From NCBI GenBank assembly GCA_009746045.1, contig RPFO01000156.1, positions 4,653,591-4,717,590 on the forward strand: a stretch of DNA of 64,000 nt. Direction: 5' to 3'. Below, one piece after another: positions 28,595 through 64,000 of the stretch. The notes beneath the pieces are model-generated. The model was not told the DNA's origin. It did no database searches and saw only the letters and a list, made by a program, of their open reading frames with translations. The first letter of the stretch is position 1. Each line of letters begins with the position of its first letter. Origin of the DNA: Mesostigma viride. Taxonomy: Eukaryota > Streptophyta > Mesostigmatophyceae > Mesostigmatales > Mesostigmataceae. The translations under genes and the position numbers were made by a program.

Positions 28595-28630
28595 CTAGGG
28601 TCCGGTGGTGAGGGTGAGGCAGCTGGTGAT

Positions 28631-31600
28631 GTGCCAAATATGCGAGCTAGTGCGGGGCAGCACGGCTCGACCCCCCAGGCTAGCTCACCCCGCCTGGGTG
28701 CTCGCGTGGCAGCGCTAGATGAGAGCGCTGGTGAGGAGGGGGACCATGCAGAGCAGGGGGCAGTTGCAGTAGGGGATGAAGCACTGTCTCAGGGAACGAG
28801 GGAGAAGGGGGTTGGAGGAGGTACTGCAGGTGTACACACTGCAGTTCTGGACGGGCCACCGGTACGAAGGTCCTCCCCACACCCGGGACCTCAGGCACAA
28901 CAGTCTCAATGTCCATTGGAGGCAGGTGGTACACTCAGTGTACTTAACATGGCAATGAGGTTACACACACGGTTGGGTCATGGCCACGCTGCAGAGCATT
29001 GGGCAGCATCACTGGGGTTTTCGGAGCTGGTGGCGACGTGCAGAGAGGTCTGGCAGAGGTGTAAGCATTGTCAGCGCAATGTGCCTAAGCCGCACAAGTT
29101 TCATGCACGTAGACCGGTGCTAGAGAGGGGCCCGGTGCAAGTGGATGTGCTCAAGTACGATGACAGGGAGTATGTGCTAGCGGTGGGGCGGTTCTCCAGG
29201 TTCAAGGCACTAGAGGTGTTGCCACGCAAGCACAAGGAAGAGCTGCTCACCAGCCTGCGCTTGGTAAAGGCCAAGTTTGCCGTGGTGTCAACTTTAGAGT
29301 GTGACCAGCAGTTCGAGTGTTGCATGAAGGAGCCGGGGTTTGAGCAGATTGTGGTGGCGGGTGCGGCAGATCACGAACATCAAGGGTTAGTGGAGAGACA
29401 TATCAGGACCTCCAAGTTTGTGATGAGTGCTATGGCCAGGATGCGCTCGCTGTCGTACCGCGATCAGGCTCTGTTGTGCAGGCAGATAGAGGAGCACATG
29501 AATCACAGGGTGATGGTCAGGGTACATGTGGATGGTGAGGAGGTAGCCGTCACGCCCCATGGGTTGGAGATGGGCCTGCTCCCGCTGGAGGCGGTAGAAG
29601 CATACCGTGATTGGCTGTGTGACCGGTACCTCAGGCTGGTGGACATGGACCTGCGCAGGGGTGATGTGTACGTGCCTAGCGAGGGAGCAAGGGTGTGGGC
29701 GTACCGGGAGGGAAGTGCTTTGGAACAGGGTTTGTGGGAGGGCCCTGTTGTGGTCAAGTCAGTGGACGGTGACCACATGTTGGCGAAGGTTGGGCGTGAG
29801 GACCGCCGCTTCGACCGACTACTGGCGTGGAAACACTTGCGGCCGTACTACGAGGGGCTAGGTGCGCCAGCAGACCTGCCCCATGAGGAAGGTGCGATGG
29901 GCTCCAGCGCGCAGGCTGGAGGTGAGGCGGGGGACCCAGGGACGGCCGCAAGGGGGGTGAGAGAGGAGACGGGGCCTGATCAGCCTGCGCCCTCTCTTCC
30001 GTCGGATGGTGGGTTGCCACTGTCCAATGGCGGTCCAGCCAGTGTGGGACCAGGCGGGCTGGGGGTTGCCCCTTCCGCTGATGGTCAGGAGGTGCAGCGC
30101 GCGACAATGTTTGCCCGTGTCATTGAGCGGCTGCAGGAAGCCCGGCGGGCAATCGCGGAACGCGAGCAGCCGGGGGGCACGTTACCACGGGCCGGCGGGG
30201 CGGGCAGGCCGTCGGCTGTAGGTGGGGCGCCTCAGGCCGGCGAGGGAGCCGTAGGAGGGCCACCACAGTCCAGCGAGGCCAATGCAGGGCCAGCCGCAGG
30301 TGGAGAGGCACAGGCCGGCGATGCTGGCGCATCGACCGCAGGTGCGGGGCTACAAGCCGATGGCGCTGATGGGTCGGCTAGCACCCGGCGCGAGTCACTG
30401 AGTGGCGGTGATGGCTCCGAGGGCGGCGGCGACGTCGCAATGGAGGCTGGTAATGAGGTAGCCTCGGTGTCTAAGCTAGTGGATTTTCAGCAGGACGGGC
30501 TGGCTGGGTGTCGGTTGGAGGTGGATACTAATGCGGTGGTGTGCTTGCTAGGTGAAGGGGTAGCTAGGCACTTCCCGCTACAACCGTCCAAGTGGAACTT
30601 TGTGGAGGACTTTTCTGGGGTGGTGCGCATGCCGGTAGTGGGCGAGGTGATGCTGACCATTCTTGGGCGTGACACTCCTTTCTGCGTGCTTGAGGGCTAT
30701 GATGGGCCGGCGATTCTGGGGCTGCCATTTCTTAATCACCCTGATGTTGTGATCCAGAGCTCTAGTTTGACCAGGGAGGGCCATGGGTCGATAGAGTTGG
30801 AATCGTACAAGGCAGTGCAACCTCTCAGTCTCGTCTCAAGCACCGTGGCTAGGCTAGCAGCACTGACAGGGACAGAGGGTGTGGCGTGGGGAAAGGATCT
30901 CCCGCCAGCGGTAGACCTGGTCATGCCTGCGTTGTTGCATCCATCCAGCATCGGTATTACCAAGCGGGACATCGCTGCACATTCTCCGATTGGCTATGAG
31001 AGGCTGGTACTAGAGATGTCGACGCAGAGTGGTTTCTCCAGCTGGTGGTGCGCGTTTCACAGGGCGCTGGAGGAGTGGCAGGGGTATGGTGTGTATGAAC
31101 CAATGGACAGTGTGCCCAAGGGGGCCAAGGTACTTCCTCTCAAGATGGTGTTGTCTCACAAGGTAAAGGCTGGGGTGGAGGTATGCTATGTGAGGCCGGT
31201 GTCGCAGGAGTTTTCGGGAACCAGTGAGCTGGCCAAGGAGGAGCTGTACACCCCAGGCCTGGCGTGGGATAGCTTCAGGATTATCACCATGCTGTATCTC
31301 GGTTTCCTGGATGAGGGCAGAGACTATGGGTGTGCGTCTATTGATGTCAAGCGTGCTTTCCCTAACTCTAGCGAGGAGGTGGCGCGTGAGGTGTGGGAAG
31401 GCACGTCACCCCTGGTGGTCCAGACACCCTCGTTTTGGATGGAGGAAGTGAGGGCAGAATTCATGGGCTTGTTGAAGGCCATAGAGGGACTGCAGAGTGC
31501 CTCGATTGTGTGGCGTATCACTTTGATGCGTGCTCTGTTTGAGCTGATGACATTCGAGGTATCCCCGTACGACCCTTCGTTGTTTGTGGCACAGACTCCC

Positions 31601-32557
31601 TCAGGTCCCTTGTTTGTACAATTGCATGGGGATGACCTGCGAGTGGTAGCACCCCGTGCTGTTCTGCATCAGTTCTATGCAGATCTCGCTAAGCGTTTCC
31701 CTGTGGGCGAGCTGCAGGTGGTGGACCAGCAGACTCCGCGTGTCTTCTGCGGTGTAGTGCAGACCCTGCGAGTGACGTCTGGTAGGCATCAGATGCACCT
31801 GGGTATTCCTGACAAGTATCGGGAGGAGCTGATGGGCTCGGTGGATGAGCTGTGTGCTAAGGGCCTGTGGAGCCGCCTGCGTGGCAAGCTAGGCTGGATG
31901 GCGGCAGTGTGTGCGCCCGATCTGGTGGTGCTGAGTAGGACGGTAGATGACGTGTTGTCGCAAGTCCATCCGTCGGTTGTGAGGCAGTATGTGGCCGAGA
32001 GCCAAGGTGTGGTGCTTTCTGGCCTGTCGGTCTCTCAGCCCGCTGTTCTTCACTGCTTTGCAGATACGTCGGGTGAGGGCAGGGAACTGACCAAGCTGAG
32101 GGCACGGATGGGTGGTCTGTTTGTGCTCTGTAACCCAGGGGGTCGGGGATCGCTGTGTGGGTGGTATTCGAGACTGTGCAGGCGTGTGGCAGTTGGCTCT
32201 GACACTAACGAGTGCCGTGGTGTGTGTGAGTGTATCAAGGCTTCGCTGTACCTCGAGCAGTTCTTGCGCTGGATGGGCAAGTGGATGGGTGTCCGTTTGG
32301 TGCTGACGACAACTGTGCATACGGATAGCCAGCCGCTTGTGAGCTTTATCCTTAACAGCTTGTCCAGGACGCGTGACCTCGATTTCCTGCTGTTGAAGGA
32401 GCTGTCTTACGCGGTGAGCGTTCTCCATCTGCCGGGGAGGCTGAACCCGGCGGACGCGGTGACCAAGCTGTTTGCAGCAGCGCGAGAGCAGTATCGCATC
32501 TTGCGGATGGTGATGGCAGGTTCTCTTGGGGATCTGCGGGAGTTGTTGGTTGTTTGA
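28631..32557 (+). CDS. Copia-like pol: integrase-protease-RT-RNase H, intact frame
   Basis: 1,308-residue open frame. Integrase zinc domain H-x4-H (HTRLGH, about 112) and CKHC (about 143). Core Asp172 (VQVDVLK), Asp225 (LECDQQ), Glu255 (GLVERH). Variable Ala/Gly-rich region about 400-600. Retropepsin-like domain about 615-710, with LEVDTNAVVC (Asp632) and GPAILGLPFL. RT with SIDVKRAF and catalytic LHGDDL (Asp1001/1002). RNase H with FADTS (Asp1145), NECRG, HTDSQ and NPADAVTK. RT and RNase H are clearly of Copia type. The protease lies after the integrase instead of before it, and has Asn where Gly is expected (DTN for DT/SG). The nominal start is the first Met-like codon in the frame; pol is probably expressed by readthrough or frameshift from gag. 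No premature stop. Confidence 0.92.
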   Translation: MPNMRASAGQHGSTPQASSPRLGARVAALDESAGEEGDHAEQGAVAVGDEALSQGTREKGVGGGTAGVHTAVLDGPPVRRSSPHPGPQAQQSQCPLEAGGTLSVLNMAMRLHTRLGHGHAAEHWAASLGFSELVATCREVWQRCKHCQRNVPKPHKFHARRPVLERGPVQVDVLKYDDREYVLAVGRFSRFKALEVLPRKHKEELLTSLRLVKAKFAVVSTLECDQQFECCMKEPGFEQIVVAGAADHEHQGLVERHIRTSKFVMSAMARMRSLSYRDQALLCRQIEEHMNHRVMVRVHVDGEEVAVTPHGLEMGLLPLEAVEAYRDWLCDRYLRLVDMDLRRGDVYVPSEGARVWAYREGSALEQGLWEGPVVVKSVDGDHMLAKVGREDRRFDRLLAWKHLRPYYEGLGAPADLPHEEGAMGSSAQAGGEAGDPGTAARGVREETGPDQPAPSLPSDGGLPLSNGGPASVGPGGLGVAPSADGQEVQRATMFARVIERLQEARRAIAEREQPGGTLPRAGGAGRPSAVGGAPQAGEGAVGGPPQSSEANAGPAAGGEAQAGDAGASTAGAGLQADGADGSASTRRESLSGGDGSEGGGDVAMEAGNEVASVSKLVDFQQDGLAGCRLEVDTNAVVCLLGEGVARHFPLQPSKWNFVEDFSGVVRMPVVGEVMLTILGRDTPFCVLEGYDGPAILGLPFLNHPDVVIQSSSLTREGHGSIELESYKAVQPLSLVSSTVARLAALTGTEGVAWGKDLPPAVDLVMPALLHPSSIGITKRDIAAHSPIGYERLVLEMSTQSGFSSWWCAFHRALEEWQGYGVYEPMDSVPKGAKVLPLKMVLSHKVKAGVEVCYVRPVSQEFSGTSELAKEELYTPGLAWDSFRIITMLYLGFLDEGRDYGCASIDVKRAFPNSSEEVAREVWEGTSPLVVQTPSFWMEEVRAEFMGLLKAIEGLQSASIVWRITLMRALFELMTFEVSPYDPSLFVAQTPSGPLFVQLHGDDLRVVAPRAVLHQFYADLAKRFPVGELQVVDQQTPRVFCGVVQTLRVTSGRHQMHLGIPDKYREELMGSVDELCAKGLWSRLRGKLGWMAAVCAPDLVVLSRTVDDVLSQVHPSVVRQYVAESQGVVLSGLSVSQPAVLHCFADTSGEGRELTKLRARMGGLFVLCNPGGRGSLCGWYSRLCRRVAVGSDTNECRGVCECIKASLYLEQFLRWMGKWMGVRLVLTTTVHTDSQPLVSFILNSLSRTRDLDFLLLKELSYAVSVLHLPGRLNPADAVTKLFAAAREQYRILRMVMAGSLGDLRELLVV

Positions 32558-33044: not shown

Positions 33045-33650
33045 TGTTATATTGTGGGCTCGCAGTCACATAAAGTATTGGAATTTGGTTATGCTCGGAA
33101 TTGGCTAAGTCCGGAGGTCAGCCGGCAGCGCCGCGCTGAGGTTTATTTGCTGGGCCGGCGGTCAGTGGGAATTTATGTGTACGGTCAGGCAACGGGTCGT
33201 AGGTTCTGGCTGTGGGCTATTTTGGGTTCTGGCCATTACCGTTCGTTCCGTGGGCAACCTTGGTTCCGTACCGTTTGTCCAGGCAAGCAGTGGGGAGGAT
33301 CTCGGTTGCGGTGCGTTATGTTGTGGAGTGTCGTTTGGGAATTATGTTGGTGTATTTCGGTTGGTTTGTACTTGGGTACGTTCTCAGGCCCACGCCGTTG
33401 CTCAGCGTTGGGTGAAGCCACAGAGCTACTCGCAGTGATCGATGACCTACAGCGGAGCATTGAGTCAAAGCTGTTTGGCGGCGTGAAAGGCCGACACGCA
33501 GGAGAAAGCTTTGAATCACGTTGCAGCAAATGCTGTCAATGGCCGACGTTGTCGACATGTCCGGGGCTGGGCGCTGAGCGAGTAATCTATTCTATTACGT
33601 CCGTTTTATTATTCGGAAATACAATACACTTAAAGAATTTTATTTTAACA
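33045..33650 (+). repeat. 3' LTR of element B
   Basis: 606 bp, TGTTATATTG to TTTTAACA. It preserves the uninterrupted TTAA site (33630-33633) used by the piggyBac-like element in the 5' LTR. Confidence 0.93.
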
Positions 33651-34884
33651 CCTATAGCTCTGTGCTGATTGATTTCAAGAGGGCTTTTCTCAAGGGTGAC
33701 CAAGATCAGGCTAGGCAGACTTGGAGAGATATCCCTCCTTTCTTTGTGACTGTACCTGCTGTATGGAGAGCAGCTGCTGTATGGAGAGCAGAGATAAAGG
33801 CCAGGTACCTGAGAATTCTGAAAGGGTTGGAAGGTCTCAGGTCCAGTCCCATTATCTGGAGAAAGAGCCTAGAGAAATTCTTGAAGAATACTTGTGGGTT
33901 TTCTGTGTCTCCAGTGGATCCCTGTTTGTTCCAAGGGTCCCACAATGGCCTTCCTGTCTTTGCCTCACTGCATGGTGATGACCTGCATCTCATAGGTCCA
34001 CCAGACTGGGTTGAGGCTGTTTTGGCCAAGATCCAGAAGCGGTTTGAGCTGGGTAAGATACAGTACATGGTGGAGAATGAGCCTATGGTCTTCTGTGGCA
34101 TGCAGGCTACGTTGTTCCAAGCCAAGGGCTCGTGGTTCATCAGGATGGAGGGTGGTAATAAGGCTTATCCACAGCAGATTGTAGATGCATTGCAGGAGCC
34201 CATCTCGCAGGCTAGGTGTGCTACACCATCAGGGGCATGCTGGCATGGCTTGCAAGTATATGTGCCCCTGACTTGCTGGTCTTGAGTCGACTTACTGATT
34301 CCCAGCTGGTTGAAGTGGGTGCTGAGAGTGTGGTGCAGGCTGTCATGATGTCTCCCCCTCTTATACTGGGTCCTGTGGATTTGTACAAGCCCCTTGACAT
34401 GGTTCTCTATGTGGACAGTTCTATGGATAATAGGAAGGTCACAGAGGTCAGGGGCAGAGCAGCAGCATTAGTTACCCTGGAGCAAGGTCAAACCTCACTT
34501 GTTACCTGGTACAGTCGGTTGCAGAACAGGGTTACACCCAGCAGTGATATTGCTGAGTGCAGGGCAATCTGTGAAGGGCTGCATACTGCTCTTTACTTGA
34601 GGGAGCTCTTCTACCAGCTATGTCAAGTGGCTTCCTGTAGGTTGCAGCTGCACACACTGGTGAGGACTGATAGCATGGGCATGGTGCAATTTGTGCACAG
34701 GCAGCTAACCAGGAGCAGGGACCTTGACTACTTGTTGCTCAAGGAGATGTCCTACCTAGCTCACATTGAACATGTGCCTGGTGTGGACAACCCTGCAGAT
34801 GCCCTCACCAAGCTGGAGGAGAAGGCGGAGCGGCAGTACCCCCTGCTCCGTGGGCTCATGGACCCCTTACACGGGCGGCCATAG
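33651..34884 (+). pseudogene. Copia-like element A, right part: RT and RNase H
   Basis: Resumes after the second CCTAT: VLIDFKRAFLKGDQDQARQT, SPVDPCLFQGSHNGLPVF and catalytic LHGDDLHLIG (RT). Then a frame change at about 34216-34285 into RNase H: LYVDSSMDNRK, AECRAICEGLHTALYLREL, VRTDSMGM and NPADALTKL, stop at 34882-34884. It is diverged from element B but colinear with it. The internal duplication CTGTATGGAGAGCAG at about 33759 and 33777 is a local slip. Inactive. No LTRs recognised. Confidence 0.85.
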
Positions 34885-42089: not shown

Positions 42090-42450
42090 ACACTACGCGC
42101 CTTTTGGACTCCCCCACTTGATCTGTGGGACACGCACGCGCCTGCCAAAGAAATGGATTTCCCCATTGGGCTTTGGAGCAAAGCAAGGCAGACTTGGGCT
42201 CTTGGAGGCCTGGCTCTCGCCACTACACCGGAAAGGAGAGGTGCACGCTTGGCCTATTGAAACAAGGCAACATGTGCTTGCTCCTTTGGAAGAGGTACCC
42301 GCCCCTATATATAGTCAAAGGACAATGCCATGCACTTAGGTATTGGAACATGCATCTGTCCTGTCAAAGAGGTCCTCGCCCCTGTATTAAACAACCCCAC
42401 GTTTGCCTTTTGGAAGAGGTACTTGCACCACCCCTGTCCTTGAGCAAGCA
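42090..42450 (-). repeat. degenerate copies of the end of TFIIA exon 6
   Basis: On the minus strand TACCTCTTCCAAAAGGC, the end of exon 6 (42517-42501), recurs at 42421-42405 and as TACCTCTTCCAAAGGA at 42297-42282. Shorter partial copies lie near 42369-42386 and 42096-42108. They lie in the region after the exon and form an old, diverged tandem family. Confidence 0.65.
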
Positions 42451-42502
42451 CACCATGATGAGAAGTTTTTATTATATATAGAAAGGAGGAGCGCACACGC
42501 GC

Positions 42503-45500
42503 CTTTTGGAAGAGGTACTCGCGCCGGTTCAGGTGGGCCACCCCGTCCTTGAGCACGCACTTCCACTTGCTCTTGGTGCGTGTAACCTGGCCAGGGTGAC
42601 GCAAGGAGTCCATGCAGAAGCCACCGCAACCGATGAAGGTAAAGATAAAGAAGATGAGGACAAATAAGATGAATGAAATGGATGAGATGGATGAGATGGA
42701 TGAGATGAATGAGATGAATACAATTGAAGGAGGCTGCAGTCGGTTACATGAAAGGCTGCCACCATTCACCAGATGAACAGCTGCCACGATCTATTTAACA
42801 ACCGGCCGGCGCAAGGGGGGCGCATGGGGTGCGTGTGTGTCTGTGTCACGGATGGATCGATCAAACCAGCTCTTGAAAATCTATACCTTTTTAGATGATA
42901 TTCGATATACCACTAGGCAGTCACGTTGGCTACAATGTTACAGAAGACGCGCACATGCATGGCCTTGTACGCCCTCTTTTAGAGGGCACCAGTACATGAT
43001 GGAGGCAGGAAACTCCGCGAGGCTTTGTGTTGGCTTTGCCTCCTATCCGGCATCTGCTGCCCCCCCCCCCCCCCCCCCTTCTAATAACTAACAACCTGAT
43101 GTTTGATGACAACAGTGGGTGCCACGTCCAACTGCGCATGTACCTTGCCAGCTTGGGCAAGAACCTTCTCAAACTGGGCTAAAGCCTATCAAACTGGGCA
43201 AGAACCTTCTCGAACTGGGCCAAAGCATATCAAACTGGGCAAGAACCTTCTTGAACTGGGCCAAAGCCTATCACACTAGGCAAGAACCTTCTCAAACTGG
43301 GCCAAAGCCTATCAAACTGGGCAAGAACCTTCTCAAACTGGGCCAAAGCCTATCAAACTGGGCAAGAACCTTCTCAAACTGGGCTAAAGCCTATCAAACT
43401 GGGCAAGAACCTTCTCGAACTGGGCCAAAGCCTATCAAACTGGGCAAGAACCTTCTCGAACTGGGCCAAAGCCTATCAAAACTAGGCAAGAACCTTCTCA
43501 AACTGGGCCAAAGCCTATCAAACTGGGCAAGCACCTTCTCAAACTGGGCTAAAGCCTACCGCACTAGGCAAGGACCTTCTCAAACTGGGCCAAAGCCTAT
43601 CAAACTGGGCAAGAACCTTCTCAAACTGGGCTAAAGCCTATCAAACTGGGCAAGAACCTTCTCGAACTGGGCCAAAGCCTTTCAAACTGGGCAAGAACCT
43701 TCTCGAACTGGGCCAAAGCCTATCAAACTGGGCAAGCACCTTCTCAAACTGGGCCAAAGCATATCAAACTGGGCAAGAACCTTCTCCAACTGGGCCAAAG
43801 CCTATCAAACTGGGCAAGAACCTTCTCAAACTGGGCCAAAGCCTATCAAACTGGGCAAGAACCTTCTCAAACTGGGCCAAAGCCTATCAAAACTAGGCAA
43901 GAACCTTCTCAAACTGGGCCAAAGCCTATCAAACTGGGCAAGAACCTTCTCAAACTGGGCTTAAGCCTATCAAACTGGGCAAGAACCTTCTCAAACTGGG
44001 CTAAAGCATATCAAACTGGGCAAGAACCTTCTCAAACTGGGCTAAAGCATATCAAACTGGGCAAGAACCTTCTCGAACTGGGCTAAAGCCTCTCAAACTG
44101 GGCAAGAACCTTCTCGAACTGGGCCAAAGCCTTTCAAACTGGGCAAGAACCTTCTCGAACTGGGCTAAAGCCTATCAAACTGGGCAAGAACCTTCTCGAA
44201 CTGGGCCAAAGCTTATCAAACTGGGCAAGAACCTTCTCAAACTGGGCTAAAGCCTATCAAAGTGGGCAAGAACCTTCTCAAACTGGGCCAAAGCCTATCA
44301 AACTGGGCAAGAACCTTCTCAAACTGGTCCAAAGCCTATCAAACTGGGCAAGAACCTTCTCAAACTGGGCCAAAGCCTATCACACTGGGCAAGAACCTTC
44401 TCGAACTGGGCCAAAGCCTATCAAACTGGGCAAGAACCTACTCAAACTGGGCTAAAGCCTATCAAACTGGGCAAGCACCTTCTCGAACTGGGCTAAAGCC
44501 TATCAAACTGGGCAAGAACCTTCTCGAACTGGGCTAAAGCCTATCAAACTGGGCAAGCACCTTCTCAAACTGGGCCAAAGCCTATTAAACTGGGCAAGAA
44601 CCTTCTCAAACTGGGCCAAAGCCTATCAAACTGGGCAAGAACCTTCTCGAACTGGGCCAAAGCCTATCAAACTGGGCAAGAACCTTCTCAAACTGGGCCA
44701 AAGCCTATCAAACTGGGCAAGAACCTTCTCAAACTGGGCCAAAGCCTATCACACTGGGCAAGAACCTTCTCGAACTGGGCTAAAGCATATCAAACTGGGC
44801 AAGCACCTTCTCAAACTGGGCTAAAGCCTATCAAACTGGGCAAGAACCTTCTCAAACTGGGCTAAAGCATATCAAACTGGGCAAGAACCTTCTCAAACTG
44901 GGCTTAAGCCTATCAAACTGGGCAAGAACCTTCTCAAACTGGGCTAAAGCATATCAAACTGGGCAAGAACCTTCTCGAACTGGGCCAAAGCCTATCAAAC
45001 TGGGCAAGAACCTTCTCAAACTGGGCCAAAGCCTATTAAACTGGGCAAGAACCTTCTCAAACTGGGCTAAAGCCTATCAAAGTGGGCAAGAACCTTCTCA
45101 AACTGGTCCAAAGCCTATCAAACTGGGCAAGAACCTTCTCAAACTGGGCCAAAGCCTATCACACTGGGCAAGAACCTTCTCGAACTGGGCTAAAGCATAT
45201 CAAACTGGGCAAGCACCTTCTCAAACTGGGCTAAAGCCTATCAAACTGGGCAAGAACCTACTCAAACTGGGCTTAAGCCTATCAAACTGGGCAAGAACCT
45301 TCTCAAACTGGGCTTAAGCCTATCAAACTGGGCAAGAACCTTCTCAAACTGGGCTAAAGCATATCAAACTGGGCAAGAACCTTCTCGAACTGGGCCAAAG
45401 CCTATCAAACTGGGCAAGAACCTTCTCTAACTGGGCCAAAGCATATCAAACTGGGCAAGAACCTTCTCAAACTGGGCTAAAGCCTATCAAACTGGGCAAG

Positions 45501-48500
45501 AACCTTCTCAAACTGGGCCAAAGCCTATCAAACTGGGCAAGAACCTTCTCAAACTGGTCCAAAGCCTATCAAACTGGGCAAGAACCTTCTCAAACTGGGC
45601 CAAAGCCTATCACACTGGGCAAGAACCTTCTCGAACTGGGCCAAAGCCTATCAAACTGGGCAAGAACCTTCTCGAACTGGGCTAAAGCCTATCAAACTGG
45701 GCAAGCACCTTCTCAACCCGGGCACTAGCGTATCAAACCAAGCACATACCTTGTCAATTGGGCACGTGCCTTTCAAAGGCATCCTATCAATGTGTACCTT
45801 ATTTTTTTGTCAAACTGGGCGATCATCTTCTCAATTCAACCAGTGCCCTGACGGAATGTCCCTTATCACACTGGGGAAATACCTAAAAAGAAAGGATTGG
45901 CACATACCTCGGCAAACTGGGCACATACCTTATTCGAATGGGCACATACCTTGTCAAACTGGGCACATACCTTATTCGAATGGGCACATACCTTGTCAAA
46001 CTGGGCACATACCTTATTCGAATGGGCACATACCTTGTCAAACTGGGCACATACCTTATTCGAATGGGCACATACCTTGTCAAACTGGGCCAGCACCAGG
46101 TCGTCGTGCGTCTGGGGGTCACCCCCATCGTCATCATCCGAGTCACTCAACGCTGGCTCCCCTTCATCCGCCTGTGGTCCTTGCCAGGCAACAGCCGGCA
46201 GCATCACCAAAGCAAGGAATGAGCCACAAGGTGAAACACGAAGGTCGACAGAGCAAACTAGAGTGCACCCATGGCCCAAGTATATGTCATAAACTACAGT
46301 CTATTTTATACAGTAGTTCTAAAGTTTATTTCACATACGAGAGTATACCCATCACCCATGCATACTTCACAAACGAGAGTATATCAACTATCATGGCATA
46401 ACTGTAGTATATTTCACATACGAGACTATACCCATCACCCATGCATACTTCACAAACGAGAGTATATCAACTATCATGGCATAACTGTAGTATATTTCAC
46501 ATACGAGAGTATACCCATCACCCATGCATACTTCACAAACGAGAGTATATCAACTATCATGGCATAACTGTAGTATATTTCACATACGAGAGTATACCCA
46601 TCACCCATGCATACTTCACAAACGAGAGTATATCAACTATCAAGGCATAACTGTAGTATATTTCACATACGAGAGTATACCCATCGCCCGGGCATACTTC
46701 ATAAACGAGAGTATATCAACTATCATGGCATAACTGTAGTATATTTCACATACGAGAGTATACCCATCGCCCATGCATACTTCACAAACGAGAGTATATC
46801 AACTATCATGGCATAACTGTAGTATATTTCACATACGAGAGTACACCCATCGCCCAAGTCCCTTTCATAAACTCACATCCCGCCCGTGAAGAGAGGGAGC
46901 CACACGTGGCCAAGGAAGCTCTCTTTCCCGACCCCCCCCAAAAACAAACAAACAAACAAACAAACAAACAAACAAACAAACAAACAAACAAACAAACAAA
47001 CAAACAAACAAACAAACAAACAAACAAACAAACAAACAAACAAACAAACAAACAAACAAACAAACAAACAAACAAACAAACAAACAAACAAACAAACAAA
47101 CAAACAAACAAACAAACAAACAAACAAACAAACAAACAAACAAACAAACAAACAAACAAACAAACAAACAAACAAACAAACAAACAAACAAACAAACAAA
47201 CAAACAAACAAACACACAGATGTACAGAACGCCTGGCGAGCATGCACATTCCCCCTGCTCTTAGCAGGTTATGAAGTGCAGACATCACAGTCCAGATGAT
47301 GTCATGGGTTACACAACCGTGGCGACATACTGCAGCCCGAGGCTGACTGTCATGCCTTTGCCAGCGCTCCCACATTGGGAAAACATGAGCACGCAGGCCT
47401 GACATTGTGCAATGGATGCCATGTGCGCATGCCCCAGCCAAAAAATAGTCGAGCAACAACGCTAGCCACCCATTGGACTCCTACCCCCAGCAATCCACTC
47501 CAGCAGCTAAACAGCACCACATTGGGCTCCTATGCCACCTGGCTCCTCCACCTAGGCATCTGCCTTCCCATACATCACCCCACTCCTCCCTCCTCGTCCA
47601 CGTGCTGCTTCTTCCCCACGCCTACCCCTCCCGCGCTCTCCCACCCCCAGCAGCAGATACACACCCATGGGAGGCCCCCAGTTCGTCACCACACACCATC
47701 AGTGGGCCACTGTTTCCATTATCGAGCAGTTGCATAGCGTGATAGTGAAAAAAGTGTTGTTTGCGTGTGCAGCATGCCCATGCTCATCTGCCTGCTCAGC
47801 ATGCTGCATGCGTGCCGGATGCCAGGGGCTGCTTGCCAGGCCCGGTTCCACACATGATTGTAGATTGCCCATGCATTGGAGAGGAAGGGGCATTACGTAC
47901 CGCCCTGTGTGCAGCTGCGCTCCCACGCCCAGGAAGCACGTGGCACACGAGGCGCAACAGGGACCCACGCAAGCAAGGGCCAGGACAAGGAGAGGGCATC
48001 ATGACAAGGGGTGGCGCAGGACAAGGAGAGGGCATCATGACAAGGGGTGGCGCAGGACAAGGAGAGGGCATCATGACAAGGGGTGGCGCAGGACAAGGAG
48101 AGGGCATCATGACAAGGGGTGGCGCAGGACAAGGAGAGGGCATCATGACAAGGGGTGGCGCAGGACAAGGAGAGGGCATCATGACAAGGGATGGCGCAGG
48201 ACAAGGAGAGGGCATCATGACAAGGGGTGGCGCAGGACAAGGAGAGGGCATCATGACAAGGGGTGGCACAGGACAAGGAGAGGGCATCATGACAAGGGGT
48301 GGCGCAGGACAAGGAGAGGGCATCATGACAAGGGGTGGCGCAGGACAAGGAGAGGGCATCATGACAAGGGTGGCGCAGGACAAGGAGAGGGCATCATGAC
48401 AAGGGGTGGCGCAGGACAAGGAGAGGGCATCATGACAAGGGGTGGCGCAGGACAAGGAGAGGGCATCATGACAAGGGGTGGCGTAGGACAAGGAGAGGGC

Positions 48501-51500
48501 ATCATGACAAGGGGTGGCGCAGGACAAGGAGAGGGCATCATGACAAGGGGTGGCGCAGGACAAGGAGAGGGCATCATGACAAGGGATGGCGCAGGACAAG
48601 GAGAGGGCATCATGACAAGGGATGGCGCAGGACAAGGAGAGGGCATCATGACAAGGGGTGGCGCAGGACAAGGAGAGGGCATCATGACAAGGGGTGGCGC
48701 AGGACAAGGAGAGGGCATCATGACAAGGGATGGCGCAGGACAAGGAGAGGGCATCATGACAAGGGGTGGCGCAGGACAAGGAGAGGGCATCATGACAAGG
48801 GATGGCGCAGGACAAGGAGAGGGCATCATGACAAGGGATGGCGCAGGACAAGGAGAGGGCATCATGACAAGGGATGGCGCAGGACAAGGAGAGGGCATCA
48901 TGACAAGGGGTGGCGCAGGACAAGGAGAGGGCATCATGACAAGGGGTGGCGCAGGACAAGGAGAGGGCATCATGACAAGGGGTGGCGCAGGACAAGGAGA
49001 GGGCATCATGACAAGGGGTGGCGCAGGACAAGGAGAGGGCATCATGACAAGGGGTGGCGCAGGACAAGGAGAGGGCATCATGACAAGGGGTGGCTCAGGA
49101 CAAGGAGAGGGCATCATGACAAGGGGTGGCGCAGGACAAGGAGAGGGCATCATGACAAGGCGTGGCGCAGGACAAGGAGAGGGCATCATGACAAGGGGTG
49201 GCGCAGGACAAGGAGAGGGCATCATGACAAGGGGTGGCGCAGGACAAGGAGAGGGCATCATGACAAGGGGTGGCGCAGGACAAGGAGAGGGCATCATGAC
49301 AAGGGATGGCGCAGGACAAGGAGAGGGCATCATGACAAGGGGTGGCGCAGGACAAGGAGAGGGCATCATGACAAGGGATGGCGCAGGACAAGGAGAGGGC
49401 ATCATGACAAGGGGTGGCGCAGGACAAGGAGAGGGCATCATGACAAGGGGTGGCGCAGGACAAGGAGAGGGCATCATGACAAGGGGTGGCGCAGGACAAG
49501 GAGAGGGCATCATGACAAGGCGTGGCGCAGGACAAGGAGAGGGCATCATGACAAGGGGTGGCGCAGGACAAGGAGAGGGCATCATGACAAGGCGTGGCGC
49601 AGGACAAGGAGAGGGCATCATGACAAGGCGTGGCGCAGGACAAGGAGAGGGCATCACGACAAGGGGTGGCGTAGGACAAGGAGAGGGCATCATGACAAGG
49701 GGTGGCGCAGGACAAGGAGAGGGCATCATGACAAGGCGTGGCGCAGGACAAGGAGAGGGCATCATGACAAGGCGTGGCGTAGGACAAGGAGAGGGCATCA
49801 TGACAAGGGGTGGCGCAGGACAAGGAGAGGGCATCATGACAAGGGGTGGCGCAGGACAAGGAGAGGGCATCATGACAAGGGGTGGCGCAGGACAAGGAGA
49901 GGGCATCATGACAAGGGGTGGCGCAGGACAAGGAGAGGGCATCATGACAAGGGGTGGCGTAGGACAAGGAGAGGGCATCATGACAAGGGGTGGCGCAGGA
50001 CAAGGAGAGGGCATCATGACAAGGGGTGGCGCAGGACAAGGAGAGGGCATCATGACAAGGGATGGCGCAGGACAAGGAGAGGGCATCATGACAAGGGGTG
50101 GCGCAGGACAAGGAGAGGGCATCATGACAAGGGGTGGCGCAGGACAAGGAGAGGGCATCATGACAAGGCGTGGCGCAGGACAAGGAGAGGGCATCATGAC
50201 AAGGGATGGCGCAGGACAAGGAGAGGGCATCATGACAAGGGGTGGCGCAGGACAAGGAGAGGGCATCATGACAAGGGGTGGCGCAGGACAAAGGGGGGGC
50301 AGGCGGGGAGTTGGCGGGGCACAGGTAGGGGGCTGTGGGAAACGAGTCAGCGCTGCTCTCTTGGCCAGGTCGGGTGAGCACACGGCAGGAGAAGGTGAGG
50401 TTTGGGTACGGGTGGGGCAGGGCAGGAGGGGCAAAGGAGAGCATGGGGGGGAGGGTGCCCAGGGGGTGCAGCTGAACATAGGCCGAGGGGTGGGTGGGAG
50501 GTAAGGGGTCTGGCAGGGCCAGGGGCGGGTGGGTCGGTGGGGGGGGATAGCACAAATAGTGAGTACAGGTAGAGTGAACTACACAGGATCAGGGTACCAG
50601 GCTGCACATCAACCGAAAATTACACCGCATACAGGGCCACATTTCAAACAACTGCGGAAATGGAAGTCACAACAACAAAAATAGTAACAATAATTAAATG
50701 ATAGTAACAATCATATAATCATTATCGTTAAATGGTAACCATTGTTACCAGTCTCGCCCCTCCATTGGGAAGGCTCCCAACACAGTCCCGCGTGATATCT
50801 AGCCAATGATGGAAAAACAAAGTGAGCATAGGCCTCTGGCCAAATACAGTGTTAGTCACTCTTCGTGGCTCACTCATTGTGGCTCACTGTCTGGCATACG
50901 GCCAGACAACACCAGACAGCATCATCACTGGCTGAGGGGTCTTTACCAGCGCCCTTGTTTGCCCCCACCCCTGTCCTTACCAGCGCCCTTGTCTGCCCCT
51001 GCTCCTGTCCTTACCAGCGCCCTTGTCTGCCCCCGCCCCTGCCCTTACCAGCGCCCTTGTCTGCCCCCGCCCCTGTCCTTACCAGTGCCCTTGTTTGCCC
51101 CCACCCCTGTCCTTACCAGCGCCCTTGTCTGCCCCCGGCCCTGTCCTTACCAGCGCCCTTGTTTGCCCCCGCCCCTGTCCTTACCAGCGCCCTTGTCTGC
51201 CCCCTCCCCTGTCGCATCCGCGTCCCCGCTGCCGGTCGCGCCCCAGTCGTCGTCATCGTCGTCGGCCCCCAGCGCGTTCGCCCTTTCCCTCTTGACCGAG
51301 GAGGACCCTGAGGGACCCGACCCCTTGACGGGGGAGATGGACGGCATGGACTGGTGGGCCGACCACCCTGTGGGGGCGCCTGGCGGGGCGGCAGCCGCGG
51401 AGCCCTCGCCACCGCTGGGGGACACGCTGTAGCTGGCCGTGTCGGCGTCGGTGCGGAGCCGTTTGGATGGGTGGTGGGCTGGGTCCTGCAGGGTGGGGCC

Positions 51501-54500
51501 GGTGTCCCGACGCCGAGAGCGGGGGACAGGTTTTGCAGGGTCAGGTTTTTGCAAGCCAGATTTCACAAGCCAGGCTCTTGCCCGCCAGGATTGGCAAGAA
51601 AGGCAGCAAGTACCATCATTTTGTTCATTACCTGACATAAAAGTCACCGTCGGTGGATTTGGAAAGCTGTGTTTAGTGATGGTTGATGTGAGAAAAAGAG
51701 GTGGCTTGGGCGCCGGCTTGGGGTGATTGTTGTTGTGGCCTGCCAGGGGGTTCATGTGGAGATAACCCCGTGCTATTCAGCCACCATACCCTCTCCCTAC
51801 AACAGAGAGCGACCCTCTACCCTTGAAATCATCACGGTTGCTGCGTTGTTAAGCCTGTTCTGCCGCTCATGTTAGAACCGGAGCACGGCCACCTGCTTTT
51901 CACGAACAGAGCCCTGGAGCTAACTGACCGACTCATGGGCGAGTACTGACTGTGAAAACCATAAACAGAGCATGGACTTACGGAGCTGTTGGAGGCGGAG
52001 GAGTGCGCCATGGGGGGCAGACCCATGCCTGTGGTGTGGGGACCCCGCAGATAAGTGCATCAAGGACGCATACGATGGTTGGGGCAGGTGGGTATACATA
52101 AGATAATCCATAGCATCCAGTAGGGTTAGTGCATGGCATGGAACTTGAATAGCTTTAACACAGCTCCATCGATCTTGCGAGACAAGGACACACAGATCAC
52201 GAGAAAGTGAAATAAAACTGGATGCTGGCCATCCATAGCTAAATCTGTTCATCGATTTTCAAGTAGCACACCATTTTCCTCTTGTACACCATCAGCTGTC
52301 CCTTGGGAACTAGAATAAATAATTGTTGAGAAAATTCCATGCCAAGTGTTGGGAACCAGAATAGTTAGAAATTTCCTGATTGAAAGTTCCTGCTCGAAGT
52401 TCCGTGCCAAGTGTTCCGCATCTATTACCATGCTTATGTATTAGTATTATCACATTACCATGCTTATGAAGTACCATGCTTATATGTATTATAAGCCTTA
52501 TACTACCATTTATTACCGTGCTAATATATTACCATGCTTATCAAATACTATGCTTATATATTAGCATGCTTATATATTGCCATGCTCAACACTCCCAGGT
52601 TGCCCCGGGAAGCCCCCAGCCCGTGATGACAGGGGATTGAGGAAGGGTGCTCGTGTGAAAGCCTTGGGCACTCAAAACCACGGGAGCCAACCAGCAAGAT
52701 AATGCAGCCGGTGCTGTGATCAAGGCAGAGTAGCAGAACAGAACGCAGACATGGCCCTGCACAGTTCCACCCAAAGGGCCTTTCCACCCAAGAATGAACA
52801 AACGAACAAACGAATGGACGGACTGGGGGACAGATGGACAAGGGTGGACAGAAGGACAGACGCACGGACAAACTAATGGATGGATGAACAAATGAGCGAA
52901 GGAATAGACACAAGAAAGGTTTGGCCTGCTTGCCCCACACTATGGAACAAAACCTTGAACCCGAAACAGTCTGCCGCTTGCCCCACACAGTTGGCCCACA
53001 CAGTTGGCCCACACAGCTAACCCACACAACCACGCGATGGGCCGCGGTACGCTTCCGCGCCATGCTCCCATCAACCGACCCCGTGCCACCTCCTACCTAG
53101 TCTCTGTCCTACCTAGTAGTACTACGTAGTCATCTAACTAATAGTCCTACCTAGTCTCCTACCTAGTATCCTACCTAGTATCCTACCCAGCCGTCCTACC
53201 TAGTCGTCCTACCTAGTCGTCCTACCTAGTCGTCCTACCTAGTCGTCCTACCTAGTCTCCTACCTAGTCCCCGTGCTGGCCTACACCCTACACCCTGAAC
53301 CGTACCTAGGTTGCTCAGCACGCTCTGGCCACTCGCCATGTCAGGCTGCACCTGGCATCATGCGAGCAGAGAGAGACGGCGTGTGTGTGTTGGGGGGGAG
53401 GAAAACGCGGTGAGTGCCGACACACGGCACGAAATACAAGGGGGACTTCAACAACAAGATACCTGACAGGTAGAATACGGCGGCTACACCATGGCCCTAA
53501 ATGACGAGTCTGCGGGCTGCGCCTGGTTATGACCATCAGCCGGTTAGGCATGATGGGGCAGGGGGCGTGGGAGAGGGGATGATCAGAAGCATTAATTAAT
53601 TAACTAATTAATTAATTAATCAATAGACACGGGGGAGAGGGGATGATCAGAAGCATTAATTAATTCATTAACAGACACGGGGGAGAGGGGATGATCAGAA
53701 GCATTAATTAATTCATTAATAGACACGGGGGAGAGGGGATGATCAGAAGCATTAATTAATTCATTAATAGACACGGGGGAGAGGGGATGATCAGAAGCAT
53801 TAATTAATTCATTAATAGACACGGGGGAGAGGGGATGATCAGAAGCATTAATTAATTCATTAATAGACACGGGGGAGAGGGGATGATCAGAAGCATGCAT
53901 GGCGAAAAAGGAGGTAAGAAGAAGAAGAAGAAGAAGGCACAGAAGAAGGTCCTTAGCTGACCTTCTGCGTGCGGCCGAGAGAGAGGGAGTTTGGGGCCCA
54001 TTAACGCGTAATGACACAGATGCGGCAGATGGTGGGAATGATGCATGATGGGGTCCTACCCCATCCCTTATGGTGAGAGGCTTAACATCAACATCGTTCC
54101 CAGGGTGATCCGCGACTCCCGACGACCCAGCAGGGTTACGTAAGTTTGGCTTCCCCCCCCCCGCCTCTCTTCAAGGCAAGAAAGCCAACACCAGGAAAGG
54201 GCTTGACCGAGACAGCCCGTAGCCCGCGGCTACAGAAAACCAAGCGCGCCGCACCCCATTGCTGCACCGAATGATCCAGGGAAGCACGCAACTACGGATG
54301 CATGCACGGCAAACAAACTTACAACACTATCCTCACACAGGCGCAACGCGAGCGAAAGCAACGTGAGCGAGCCAGAAGCGGAACCACGCGTACAGCACAC
54401 ATGGGCAGGGGGGTGCTTATCGATAAAACAGAACCATCTAATGCAACTGTGGTTGGTGTGCCGTCCACCGCGTACTTTAGACAGCAGACGGGCCATCTAA

Positions 54501-57500
54501 TGCCACTGTGGTTGTTGTGCCGCCCACCGCGTACTTTAGACAGCAGCCGGAGGATAGAGTTGCGCAGGCCAGCAATCACCGCCACGTTGACAACACCCTT
54601 TGCAACCTCAACGGATACTGTGGACTTGGGTAAGGAAACCCTCAACCCACAACCCCAAACCCTGAACCCAAGGCAGCGTTGTGCTTGCCCACCGACCCAC
54701 CCTCCTCCTATACAACATTACCACGCGCTAGGTACGCGGCCGGCTTGCCCAAGCGCTGAGCCCTCACGCCCCTACACCCCTACACCTTGAACGGCAAACT
54801 CTAGACAACATCATTTACCATGTACACCACCCATTAAGTAGTAGAGTACACCACCCATGTAAAATAGTCTTACACACAGTGACATGTATAGTATTGATTG
54901 GATAGGATTGAGTATAGTATTGACATGTATAGTCTTACACACAGTGACATGGGTGGTGTTCCATGTATGTGGATGGCCTACCCAAGTCGTAAATCATCTA
55001 ACCCTTACAATTCAACCCCCACAATCATGCTAATTCATAAACAACGTAAGTATAACACGTACCATGTATGCGGCCGGCCGGCCCAGCTGGTTTCCCGCCC
55101 CATCGGCGCCAGGTGGGTACGTCCCTGGCCCGTATGCGCTAGGGTCGTACGGCAGCGCGTTGACCACCTCCGAACCCTGCAGGGCATGGATGATCGTAGC
55201 ATGGCACCGTGGTGGCGTGATGGTGGCACGATGGTGGGACGATGGTGGCGTGATGGTGGCGTGGTGGTGGCGTGGTGGTGGCAAGCTGGTGGCGTGATGG
55301 GCCATTGAGAGCAGTCCATGTCATTTATCTAATTGTGATCAACGTCATCCTAAAAGGGTCGCTTTGCCCAGTTCTGGTCATCAATAACCATGGAAGGGCC
55401 ATCAATAACCATGGAAGGGTGTCATCATAATCAATGGTACATACGCTGGCAACCCTTCCCTCTAATGCCTGCATTGACCAGAAGATCCCCTACATACGAA
55501 GCTATTAAGATTTTCTACATGATTACCCACTTTATGTCCCCTCTTAACCACTCTTACCCCACTCTTACCCCACTCTTACCCCACTCTTACCCCACTCTTA
55601 CCCTACTCTTACCCCACTCTTACCCCACTCTTACCCCACTCTTACCCCACTCTTACCCCACTCTTACCCCACTCTTACCCCACTCTTACCCCACTCTTAC
55701 CTCACTCTTACCCTACTCTTACCCAACTCTTACCCCACTCTTACCCCACTCTTACCCCACTCTTACCCCACTCTTACCCCACTCTTACCCCACTCTTACC
55801 CCACTCTTACCCCACTCTTACCCCACTCTTACCCCACTCTTACCCCACTCTTACCCCACTCTTACCCCACTCTTACCCCACTCTTACCCCACTCTTACCC
55901 CACTCTTACCCCACTCTTACCCCACTCTTACCCCACTCTTACCCCACACTTACCCCACTCTTACCCCACTCTTACCCCACTCTTACCCCACTCTTACCCC
56001 ACTCTTGAATTGAATTGAATTGAATTGTAACATAACTCCGTTGGGAGTATATGTAGCACATAGCCCAGAGAAGGGGCATATGGCCTATCATACATTCTAA
56101 GCTACTTCCTGCAAGGGTGGGAATGTAAACAACACTTGCTCTAGGTGCACTAGGGCACCTGCACCACCCAGAGTTTCAGGCAACACCCAGCTAAGGGGAG
56201 CCTGTCATAGGTGGGGAAGATCAGCACAGCTATACAAAAGCTAGGGCATGGCTTCTCAGCAGGGAGTGACCCCCTGCATGGGCACTGCATAATTAAATAA
56301 AGCTAGGTATCATCTGGAGGGTGGCTCATCATAGGCACACATGTACATGACTAGAAAAGGCTAGGCTCAGCTGGTATAGTGCCTGTAGTAGGCGGGCATG
56401 TACAAGGCCACTGTCTATCTATTCTACACTACTGCTGCTGTATTCCCCTAGGCTGGGGCTGCCGGAGTCGCTGGGGCCGCGGTGGTCGAGGGGGTCGCGT
56501 GCCAGGGCTTGTGGCCGACGTAGATGGCCGCCCCCTTCCAGTACACCGGCTGGCCCGCCTTGGTCTGCCGGAGCTGGAGGTAGGTCGGCCATAGCTCCCG
56601 TCGCCGTTGTTGCTGCGCCAGGGTCAAGTCGTCGTCCACGGTGAAGGAAGTGTTCTCGTCCCCACTCTTACCCCACTCTTACCCCACTCTTACCCCACTC
56701 TTACCCCACTCTTACCCCACTCTTACCCCACTCTTACCCCACTCTTACCCCACTCTTACCCCACTCTTACCCCACTCTTACCCCACTCTTACCCCACTCT
56801 TACCCCACTCTTACCCCACTCTTACCCCACTCTTACCCCACTCTTACCCCACTCTTACCCCACTCTTACCCCACTCTTACACTACTCTTACACCACTCTT
56901 ACCCCACTCTTACCCCACTCTTACCCCACTCTTACCCCACTCTTACCCCACTCTTACCCCACTCTTACCCCACTCTTACCCCACTCTTACCCCACTCTTA
57001 CCCCACTCTTACCCCACTCTTACCCCACTCTTACACCACTCTTACACCACTCTTACACCACTTCTTACATCCACTAATACACTCCTATAACACAACCATG
57101 AATATATCCACATGATTACCCCACATCCATGATTAGCTACAAACCTATGTCATAATTTCCTTGAACCCCATGAAACACAACCATAGCATAACCGAAATAG
57201 GTATAAGCTTGCCAAAATACGGCCTACCCATGGCCATCACACGCGAACACCCTACCCATGGCCATCACATGCGAACACCCTACCCATGGCCTTCACATGC
57301 GAACACGCTATCCATGGCCAGCACATGCGAACGCCCTACCCATGGCCATGAGAGGAGCACACCTCATCCATGGCCATAAGGATGAGTGTACCCCTGACCC
57401 CACCAAAGGATGCCACGCCGCTATCGGGTGGTAAGAGTGACAATGAAGGAAATCCCGTGGGACTGGGGTACAACTTCCAAGGATTTAGAAACAGGCGTGC

Positions 57501-62100: not shown

Positions 62101-64000
62101 TATTTCAAGGCAAGTGGCCGCACGTGGTCCCCATGCACGCGGTTCGATGCCCCATCCCCACGGCTGAACCATTTATGCTTGCTCTGGATGTTAGCCAGCC
62201 ATAATTTTAGCGTACAAGGCCACAGGTCTCATTGATGTGTACACACATACCACACAACAGCACATATTTGCACACACATCCCATACAACAGCAAGTGTGC
62301 GTAACTTAATCAGCGGTGATGTGCCCTGGTTCCTCCGGTGTTGGCGCGACCGCGCGCAGCCGTGGGGCGTAGAGCCAAACGCAGTGCTGCCCTAAGCTCC
62401 AAGCCCCGCGGGGGGGCTCAAAGGACCTTGTTTCAACATTACCAAACCCTTTTTATGTGGGGCTGGATGGCCCACACCTGGCTGCCCACTTGGTGCTATC
62501 CCCACGGTGCGCGACACGATGCCCGTGTTCTGTGCCAAAAACCTGAGCGTTGTTCCATGCGTTGTTACATGGGCCCAGGACGTCCACTCTTCGCTCCACC
62601 CCACGTTGGGATTCCCATGAGCTCATTTGGATGACCCCATTTTTAGTGAGACAGAGGTTCCGGTTTGTTCTTAGGGAATGGGCATGAGCCGGTTGCAGTG
62701 GCCCGAAGTTGAACTCCATGGCCCTCTCCACCCGTGCCATGGGCATGTCAGGTAGACGGGGCGGTTGAATCCATAGCTACTTTCCAGTCTCATGGCGTTG
62801 CAGGGGGCAATCTTTGGCATTTGTCATGAATCAAAACAAATGAATCAAAGCAAAGCCCGGCGAATTGTTAGCAGCCGCTGCAATACGTCTCCCCCTATTG
62901 GCCCCTGTACTACGTTGCACCCGACCAGACTGGAGTTTCCTGAGCTGAAAACTGCCCTTTTCTTGGGTAGAGGGCCGAAGGTTTGCAACCAGCAGATGAC
63001 GCGCGCGTCTGTGGATCGATGCAGCGTGGGCCAAGGGTTGCGTTGCTGCTGGATGCTGGATGCGCAATCTATTTCCCTATGCACGGCAATTGTACAAGTC
63101 CAATGTGTGGTGGACAATGTATGCTGCTGTTTGTGCAGTCCCAAACTGCATGCCCTATTTGTGTGCCCCTATCTGCGTGCCTATCTATGTGACCCACTTT
63201 CGTGCCCTATTACCTCCCTAGCTATCACCTCCAGGCCCACTCTGGGGTGTGACCACGTCTTCTTCATCAAGCAAATGCCCCATGCCGCATGGCTTACCCG
63301 TGTTCCCTATCTGTTTGGCCTGCCAATGTGCCCCATGTAGGCCCACTACGAGGTCGACCACGTATTCTTCATCGAGCAAATGCCGCAAGTGCTGTCGCAG
63401 TGCGGCGCCGAGCGGCCCCCAGGCAGCGAGCTGTCGGCCGAGCCGGTGTCCACCTCGCACCCCAACCCGCTGCTCTACCTGCTCAAGGGGGAGAATTTTG
63501 ACAGCGGGCTGTGGGCCGAACCCGCCGACATCACGGTAAGGAGTTAGCAACTATTAATAAACATCACGGCGACGCAAAATTGCACGCAGCCGCTCCTCAG
63601 GCTCGTGTTCTCATCGCTGTCGCCGTTGCCGTCGCTGCAGATGTTTTTGTTGCCCTTGCCGTTGCGCTCGCAGTCCTGTCCTATTCCACTTCCTCTTGTG
63701 CCTGTTTACCTACGTACCAGACATACTTTCGCATTTCTATTCTACATTTACTGCGCGGCTGCTGGACAGTTGACACGCTCCTCTCATGGTCCACCATCAC
63801 GTCATCACCTTGGAATCACGTTACAATTTGTGTCCATGGGTCGCGCGCGGCTGCCGGACGGTGGACGCACTTCTCTTTCTCTGTCTCATGGTCCACCATC
63901 ATTTCACCACGTTGTATGGAATTCATGTCATGATTTGTACATACATACATACATGTCACGCGCAGCTGCTGGACAAGTTCCCCCTGGACTCGGACACACT
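59142..64000 (+). CDS. Xaa-Pro dipeptidase (prolidase), N-terminal exons
   Basis: Cytosolic metallopeptidase that splits X-Pro dipeptides. Exons: 59142-59274, 59429-59487, 60009-60058, 61953-62109, 63341-63535 and 63966 to the window edge. ATG 59142 gives YFSMGKDTYRVPMRMHKQNR then LKLREKL, matching the prolidase N-terminal FWLGNETLKVPL...NRQRL region. Exon 2 ends QQAVVLLQ, exon 3 is GGEEIHRNETDTTWEFR, exon 4 is QESFFAYLFGVKEPGFFGAL then DLATGDAILFIPKLPPSFAT, and exon 5 begins AHYEVDHVFFIEQMPQVL. All phases agree (1,0,2,0,0). The exon 4 donor is AAG/GCAAGT, a GC-AG intron. The metal-binding catalytic domain lies beyond the window. Intron 3 holds 15-bp and 35-bp repeats; intron 4 holds a decoy copy of the exon 5 start. 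An upstream in-frame start is possible but lacks homology. Confidence 0.95.
60650..60830 (+). repeat. 15-bp degenerate repeat in prolidase intron 3
   Basis: About twelve diverged copies of CCTATTATGGAGCCT / GACCCTATTRYGGA. It creates a short false frame. No splice signals matched. Confidence 0.75.
61290..61697. repeat. 35-bp satellite in prolidase intron 3
   Basis: About 11.6 near-identical copies of ATACTCGCATAATACTGTTA then TTATGATACTATGAT. No exon sequence is included in the unit. Confidence 0.95.
63235..63283 (+). pseudogene. decoy partial copy of prolidase exon 5
   Basis: CACCTCCAG/GCCCACTCTGGGG then TGTGACCACGTCTTCTTCAT then CAAGCAAATGCCCCA parallels the real exon 5 start at 63341 (GCCCACTACGAGGTCGACCA then CGTATTCTTCATCGAGCAAA). 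The copy includes a good acceptor but has an extra base that shifts the frame to a stop. It lies 106 bp upstream of the real exon, within intron 4. Confidence 0.8.

Follow-up and report, generated by a model that had tools for sequence, protein, structure and literature searches.

According to passages in PMC2572611 and PMC4526556 that cite Turri et al. 1995, a minisatellite provides multiple splice donor sites in the human IFI6 gene (also G1P3 or 6-16), and IFI6 isoforms that use downstream repeat units as donors are reported in a portion of PMC4526556. The array that we describe here, in the TFIIA-alpha/beta gene of Mesostigma viride, is similar in that a donor-like unit lies at an exon end and several donors are offered. 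The IFI6 unit is reportedly 12 nt long and starts near the end of exon 2. Unlike IFI6, the TFIIA units include 15-29 nt of coding sequence from the exon end and number up to 142 half-units that span 85% of the intron; moreover, the distal TFIIA donors are mostly dead, and further cases occur in other introns of the gene.

In fission yeast, two introns, those of SPOG_01682 and SOCG_00815, are built from tandem 24-nt repeats that resemble exon sequence close by (a portion of PMC3629103). These introns and TFIIA intron 7 are both tandem repeats that resemble a nearby exon. However, the fission-yeast repeats are interpreted, in the same portion, as having given rise to a new intron out of proto-splice sites, whereas in TFIIA the array stops short of the acceptor, and it seems that an intron already present has grown. 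Tandem duplication is also a standing model of intron gain (part of PMC4974935). Both this model and the TFIIA locus involve tandem duplication at an exon-intron structure, the copy being concealed by splicing, but no new intron is shown in TFIIA and up to about 140 copies are present in place of one or a few. Introner elements are repeated sequences that form introns and have similar copies scattered over many introns. A passage of PMC3629103 names introner-like elements. Repeated sequence forms the intron in those elements and in TFIIA alike, but dispersal was not found among the eight introns of this one gene, where no TFIIA donor block has a match in another TFIIA intron (best match 13-15 of 22).

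Beyond IFI6 and the intron-gain papers, a literature search by word matching, with partial coverage, brought up no description of intronic satellites made from an exon end. What is new at this locus is the scale, the recurrence within one gene and the clear direction of copying; the class of exon-end/donor repeats itself is already known. An earlier sequence-only reading of this DNA had considered such a satellite to be an undescribed class, for which the human minisatellite and the fission-yeast introns are precedents.

The TFIIA gene and its intron 7 array

Within the window (the whole 64-kb stretch of DNA that was analysed), the host gene of the array encodes the TFIIA-alpha/beta large subunit on the minus strand (Pfam PF03153, E 3.4e-41). 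The gene model has nine inferred exons running from 58069 to 41302 (minus strand) and predicts a protein of 329 aa that is free of interruptions and ends in ASGEFDW, given the assumption that the first donor of intron 7 is used. Both conserved ends of the product align with solved TFIIA large subunits in structure alignments, the solved chains being, we presume, human and yeast. Exons 3-5 and much of exon 6 were placed by open frame and splice-site fit only. The gene had thus been correctly named as TFIIA from the sequence, and what had been numbered exon 5 and intron 5 are exon 7 and intron 7 in the gene model. Exon 7 (46076-46179, minus strand), the source of the array, is backed by the gene model, Pfam and the structure alignments. 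It is followed by intron 7 (42587-46075, 3489 nt) and by exon 8 (42503-42586), which encodes VTRTKSKWK...LFQK and ends at a GC donor; both are minus-strand features of the gene model. Seven of the TFIIA introns are GT-AG and intron 8 is GC-AG. GC starts were seen in two of the ten inferred introns of the window, AAG/GCGCGT at 42502 (minus) and AAG/GCAAGT at 62110 (plus; the slash marks the exon-intron boundary), which suggests that GC-AG introns are not rare in the Mesostigma viride genome.

Exon 7 ends in GCCCAGTTTGACAAG at 46076 (minus strand), and intron 7 opens with GTATGTG. The copied block is 21 nt long and combines the last 15 nt of exon 7, encoding AQFDK, with the first 6 nt of intron 7 (GTATGT); the founder block, GCCCAGTTTGACAAG/GTATGT, lies at 46070-46090 (minus). 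It begins a proximal array at 45899-46090 (minus), for which TRF gives a period of 42, 4.6 copies and 98% matches, and in which the unit scan and frame test find nine intact in-frame donors. Unit A is represented by the exon copy and three further exact copies. Its sister unit B (GCCCATTCGAATAAG/GTATGT), with five clustered changes relative to A, has four copies; A and B alternate strictly at 21-nt steps, and the ninth proximal unit is A with two changes. The donor reads AAG/GTATGT in eight of the nine units and GAG/GTATGT in the other. On a donor matrix that was not fitted to the species, AAG/GTATGT scores 9.8, the second highest value among the eight true TFIIA donors. As in a splice-donor minisatellite, the repeat unit contains a donor-like sequence on the sense strand and the first unit is the end of exon 7. 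When the exon 7 donor block was aligned to its own intron it scored 60, as against 32 for the best of 60 dinucleotide shuffles, 21 for the best of 18 other boundary blocks and 14 for the reverse-complemented intron.

These results (TRF, unit scan and boundary scores) confirm most of what the sequence-only reading had described, namely a tandem repeat of exon end plus donor at the start of a TFIIA intron, 42-bp steps with a diverged sister in alternation, and a unit that places splice donors, here nine of GTATGT type, in series. The array is larger than was reported. The proximal array does lie in the interval proposed for it, 45900-46179, but 46076-46179 is exon 7 and the array runs on to about 43117.

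Diverged and irregularly spaced copies occupy the roughly 160 nt between the proximal array and a second one (45739-45898, minus; unit scan), and some of the anchors in this stretch, with 3-4 mismatches in 11, may be chance. The second array (43154-45738, minus; TRF and unit scan) is a 41-bp higher-order repeat of 63 copies with 94% matches. It is built of 21- and 20-nt half-units, GCCCAGTTTGAGAAG GTTCTT and GCCCAGTTTGATAG GCTTTG, both from a founder-type block; the exon part is retained and the donor has decayed (sense donor score 1.1, on the same unfitted matrix). Two diverged distal units, one of them with AAG/GTACAT, were located by the unit scan at 43117-43158 (minus). In total, up to 142 half-units, founder included, extend from 46090 to about 43117 and span 2959 of the 3489 intron nucleotides (about 85%). 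The anchor scan, which allowed at most four mismatches in 11, gave 146 half-units, and the last four were dropped as isolated four-mismatch matches. Their isolation indicates that anchors with four mismatches can be chance, so a few in the irregular stretch may be as well. Among 136 of the 141 non-founder units (those with 20-22 nt spacing; five longer-spaced ones were left out), identity to the founder was 87% in the exon part and 50% in the donor part; deeper units keep the exon part and have mostly lost the donor. The deep unit types are changed at 7 of 12 donor sites versus 3 of 30 exon sites (p 0.002, from a post hoc hand count over two lineages).

RNA of the proximal array (45880-46179, minus) folds as a long rod, with a z of -5.0 against dinucleotide shuffles. 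Within it, GGUAUGUGCC pairs with itself through G-U pairs, UUCGAA is a palindrome, and the donors would sit in stems. No function is claimed for this rod, as the z value is inflated by a repeated, partly self-complementary 10-mer.

The direction of copying can be judged from the protein. AQFDK at the end of exon 7 aligns with CQYDK and CLYDK of solved TFIIA, where the junction reads VVVCQYDK IHRSKNKWK in chains taken as human and LMLCLYDK VTRTKARWK in the chain taken as yeast, and the segment that comes next in those proteins is exon 8 here. The sequence-only reading had itself raised the prospect that the array might predate the exon. Since the exon 7 end encodes a motif common to other TFIIA large subunits, the exon end is the older of the two and the source of the newer array. 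Pieces of exon 8, namely part of the conserved LKDG...REYLFQK region and NRREYLFQK, are likewise copied three times within intron 8 on the minus strand. One copy, at 42405-42451, takes in parts of the 3' half of the exon and the donor region. A second copy of the exon end lies at 42285-42305, and a third, of 14 nt with a GC donor (14/14), at 42095-42108. The protein motifs therefore set the direction of copying, exon to intron, for both intron 7 and intron 8. The exon end at intron 6 lacks a conserved motif, so direction is not readable there.

Boundary copies and background duplication

Boundary blocks of at most 40 exon and 15 intron nucleotides were aligned to the rest of their own intron for ten introns of two genes, TFIIA and a neighbouring prolidase-like gene whose N-terminal domain is supported by a Pfam match to AMP_N. 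Each block was set against 60 shuffles, 18 boundary blocks from other introns and the reverse-complemented intron. Copies scoring above shuffles and other boundaries were found for 4/8 donors of TFIIA (intron 3, 26; intron 6, 78; intron 7, 60; intron 8, 40) and for both acceptors of the prolidase-like gene (49 and 29). None of the eight TFIIA acceptors and neither of the two prolidase-like donors had an own-intron copy above controls, the second of these donors scoring 18. Four of the six positive cases (78, 60, 49 and 40) exceeded every reverse-complement control (maximum 32, n=20). Two of those 20 control blocks reached 32 and 26, which makes the scores of 26 and 29 weak. By a strict count, then, three of ten donors and one of ten acceptors are clear, with one weak case each. 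In a separate, simpler test with 22-nt blocks, none of 779 exonic blocks scored as high as the donor block in introns 3, 6 or 7; in intron 8, 0.6% did.

The highest-scoring case is a 34-bp array of about eight copies at the donor of exon 6 (51185-51485, minus; gene model), in which 29 nt of exon end are joined to GTAAG (50939-51213, minus; TRF and alignment). The copy of the exon 3 donor boundary at 54719-54751 (minus; boundary and 22-nt tests) is weak, with 76% identity over 33 nt and a score of 26 versus 25 for the best other-boundary control. On the plus strand, the prolidase-like exon 63341-63535 has its acceptor boundary copied at 63233-63282 (84% over 50 nt; boundary test). Here AG and about 47 nt of exon start (63339-63387) are copied upstream within the exon's own intron, in a mirror image of the donor cases. 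The following prolidase-like acceptor boundary has a copy at 63753-63768 (plus; same test) that is short and weak; its score of 29 comes from a 16-nt core at intron 2 of that gene, and the exon concerned is inferred from about 63966, at the window edge.

Several other arrays lie in the TFIIA introns on the minus strand. In intron 2, TRF found an 11-bp array of donor-like GGGGTAAGA units at 55548-56006 and a further part of it, past an intervening segment, at 56660-57068. The segment that splits this 11-bp GGGGTAAGAGT array (56010-56659, minus) contains a short open frame, translated by eye, and is possibly a mobile-element insertion. The end of exon 2 was considered as the source of the 11-bp arrays, and the boundary test found no copy of it. 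A 13-bp array of donor-like TAGGTAGGA units is present in intron 4 (53091-53269; TRF), and the end of exon 4, tried as its source, gave no significant match. About half of intron 6 is taken up by a 36-bp array (47981-50291, 64 copies, 98% matches), which is without a strong donor-like unit (sense -2.2) and for which no link to an exon boundary was found.

Are boundaries special in this respect? With low-complexity blocks left out, 52% of 953 TFIIA intron blocks are followed downstream, within 1500 nt, by a copy that scores at least 26. At the same threshold the figure is 8% for 37 exon-interior blocks and 6% for 2941 other blocks of the window. The three positive exon-interior blocks lie in exons 6 and 8, beside boundary copies. 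TFIIA donors have copies at score 26 in 4/8 cases, as often as intron interiors do; the idea of the boundary as a duplication hotspot is therefore not supported, and nothing shows a process aimed at donors. The difference between 52% of intron blocks and 8% of exon-interior blocks is what would be expected of duplication that takes no account of edges but is purged from exons. The most economical reading is one of heavy tandem duplication, blind to exon edges, with selection removing it inside exons and splicing hiding the copies that straddle a boundary.

Donor-like sites and the rest of the window

Donor-like sites and arrays were scored with the same donor matrix, which is not fitted to Mesostigma viride. 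In TFIIA introns, strong donor-like sites, here those scoring at least 7, number 105 in sense orientation versus 16 antisense; outside arrays the counts are 7 and 16. TRF gave 57 rows for the window, and the units of 37 were scored. Within the TFIIA span 20/25 rows were used (excluding four whose period was at most 5 and one that repeated the array of another row), and outside it 17/32 were used, leaving out short periods, second rows and two overlapping 12-bp rows at 28360-28393. A strong donor (score at least 7) is present in 5/20 TFIIA arrays on the sense strand, or four if the split 11-mer is counted once, and in 0/20 antisense. At a looser score of 5 the gene has eight sense arrays and one antisense, and 0/17 arrays outside the gene reach that score on either strand. 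Applied to the score-5 counts, a sign test returns p 0.016 at 7 to 0 and 0.031 with the 11-mer counted once; with the two boundary arrays also dropped, p is 0.125 and no longer significant. For two of the donor-like units, the 11-mer of intron 2 and the 13-mer of intron 4, no source was found in their own exon ends. The sense excess of donor-like arrays is suggestive, with few independent arrays behind it. Purely boundary-blind duplication does not predict such an excess, and we count it against our preferred explanation.

Tandem arrays crowd the part of the window with the two host genes (41300-64000), and positions 1-41300 have fewer, apart from long (CAA)n runs. The first 41 kb also hold ORFs of a retroelement (RVT_2 at 28595-32554; below cut-off at 33578-34282) and of a recombinase (phage-integrase family, 9525-10883), the latter match being below cut-off in the frame scan and above it for the single ORF. 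A Pfam search for other host genes, covering six frames of 1-15 kb and 34.5-41.4 kb and the plus-strand frames of 58-64 kb, returned only the phage-integrase match and AMP_N. For 15-34.5 kb, 41.4-58 kb and the minus-strand frames of 58-64 kb, Pfam was run on nine long ORFs and the assembled TFIIA only. Rfam at gathering thresholds gave nothing. The TFIIA piece and the RVT_2-bearing ORF had no confirmed relatives in viral contigs, and in pattern searches one array pattern was absent from viral contigs and another from GTDB contigs.

Origin and implications of the array

We consider it probable, at about 0.75, that boundary-blind tandem duplication from the edge of exon 7, hidden by splicing, built the intron 7 array, and our confidence in this comes mainly from introns 6-8. 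A short tandem duplication, from the last 15 nt of exon 7 to 6 nt into the intron, would have created a second exon end and donor. If the exon-proximal donor continued to be used, the extra copy would have become intron, leaving the protein unchanged and the duplication nearly neutral. Slippage, the presumed route, or unequal exchange may then have expanded the copies in at least two rounds. The round that we take to be older would be represented by the 41-bp array, with about 63 dimers and mostly dead donors, and the presumably recent one by the 42-bp dimer of 21-nt units with intact donors that adjoins the exon. Intron 7 would in this way have grown until about 85% of it consisted of exon-boundary copies, and boundary-blind duplication would also have acted at other donors and acceptors of TFIIA and the neighbouring gene.

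The nine proximal donors may instead be functional alternatives, several of them in use, with the 21-nt step kept because it is in frame. All nine are GTATGT and in phase 0, and by the frame test each would give full-length TFIIA; the predicted isoforms carry 0 to 8 inserts of seven residues beside the conserved QFDK, and read-through of the intron stays open for 207 nt. A precedent is offered by the IFI6 isoforms reported in part of PMC4526556 to take downstream repeat units as donors. However, such inserts would break a motif common to other TFIIA proteins. At intron 6, moreover, the 34-nt step shifts the frame so that the modelled acceptor yields full protein with the first of eight donors alone, yet the downstream donors look intact; intact donors alone therefore do not show use, and we regard this explanation as unlikely. 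It is similarly doubtful, if worth considering, that 5' splice sites are recurrent satellite seeds here, with exon ends and donors repeatedly amplified into the downstream intron. The preponderance of sense over antisense donor motifs would then stem from transcription or splicing intermediates that promote duplication, or from donor arrays that serve long introns, for example through U1 binding. If true, introns would lengthen by 'exon-edge shedding', a route seldom considered. U1 snRNP protects long introns from premature polyadenylation (telescripting), and donor arrays kept as U1 docking sites or decoys against it would fit the sense bias among TFIIA introns and arrays given above. We give this only a slim chance, in view of the few independent arrays, the matrix not fitted to the species and the loss of donors from the long 41-bp array.

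An intron born by the Rogers model, in which intron 7 would derive from a duplicated exon segment bearing AGGT and then have expanded, is improbable on our estimate. AG/GT does occur in all nine proximal units, the CCAG at the acceptor is followed by GT as the first letters of exon 8, and part of PMC3629103 describes fission-yeast introns composed of 24-nt exon-like repeats. Against this, the two splice sites do not both derive from unit copies: the acceptor lies about 530 nt past the last unit, and the intron contains no copy of the acceptor block, which scores 18 where shuffles reach 24. A still fainter prospect is that the array came first and that an intronic satellite spread into the exon end or overwrote it by gene conversion. 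The introns are rich in arrays and the exon unit is identical to three A units, but that unit encodes residues common to other TFIIA proteins at the same place, the exon 8 copies point the same way for a second conserved motif, and this reading is very unlikely. Simple and tandem repeats are abundant in the window and could have been collapsed or expanded in assembly. An artefact of this kind is scarcely credible when the units differ by many point changes in a mixed pattern and the feature recurs at independent boundaries.

Given its probable origin by boundary-blind duplication, this locus would capture an intron as it grows through duplications that cross an exon edge, and a conserved protein motif settles which way the copying went. 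Intron 7 is a natural test of how the spliceosome chooses among up to nine near-identical donors spaced 21 nt apart. The array is also a natural test of whether selection kills decoy donors, the donor part of the 41-bp array having decayed far more than the exon part. If such events are common in the Mesostigma viride genome, duplication at boundaries would offer a simple route to long introns, to alternative donors and, occasionally, to new introns.
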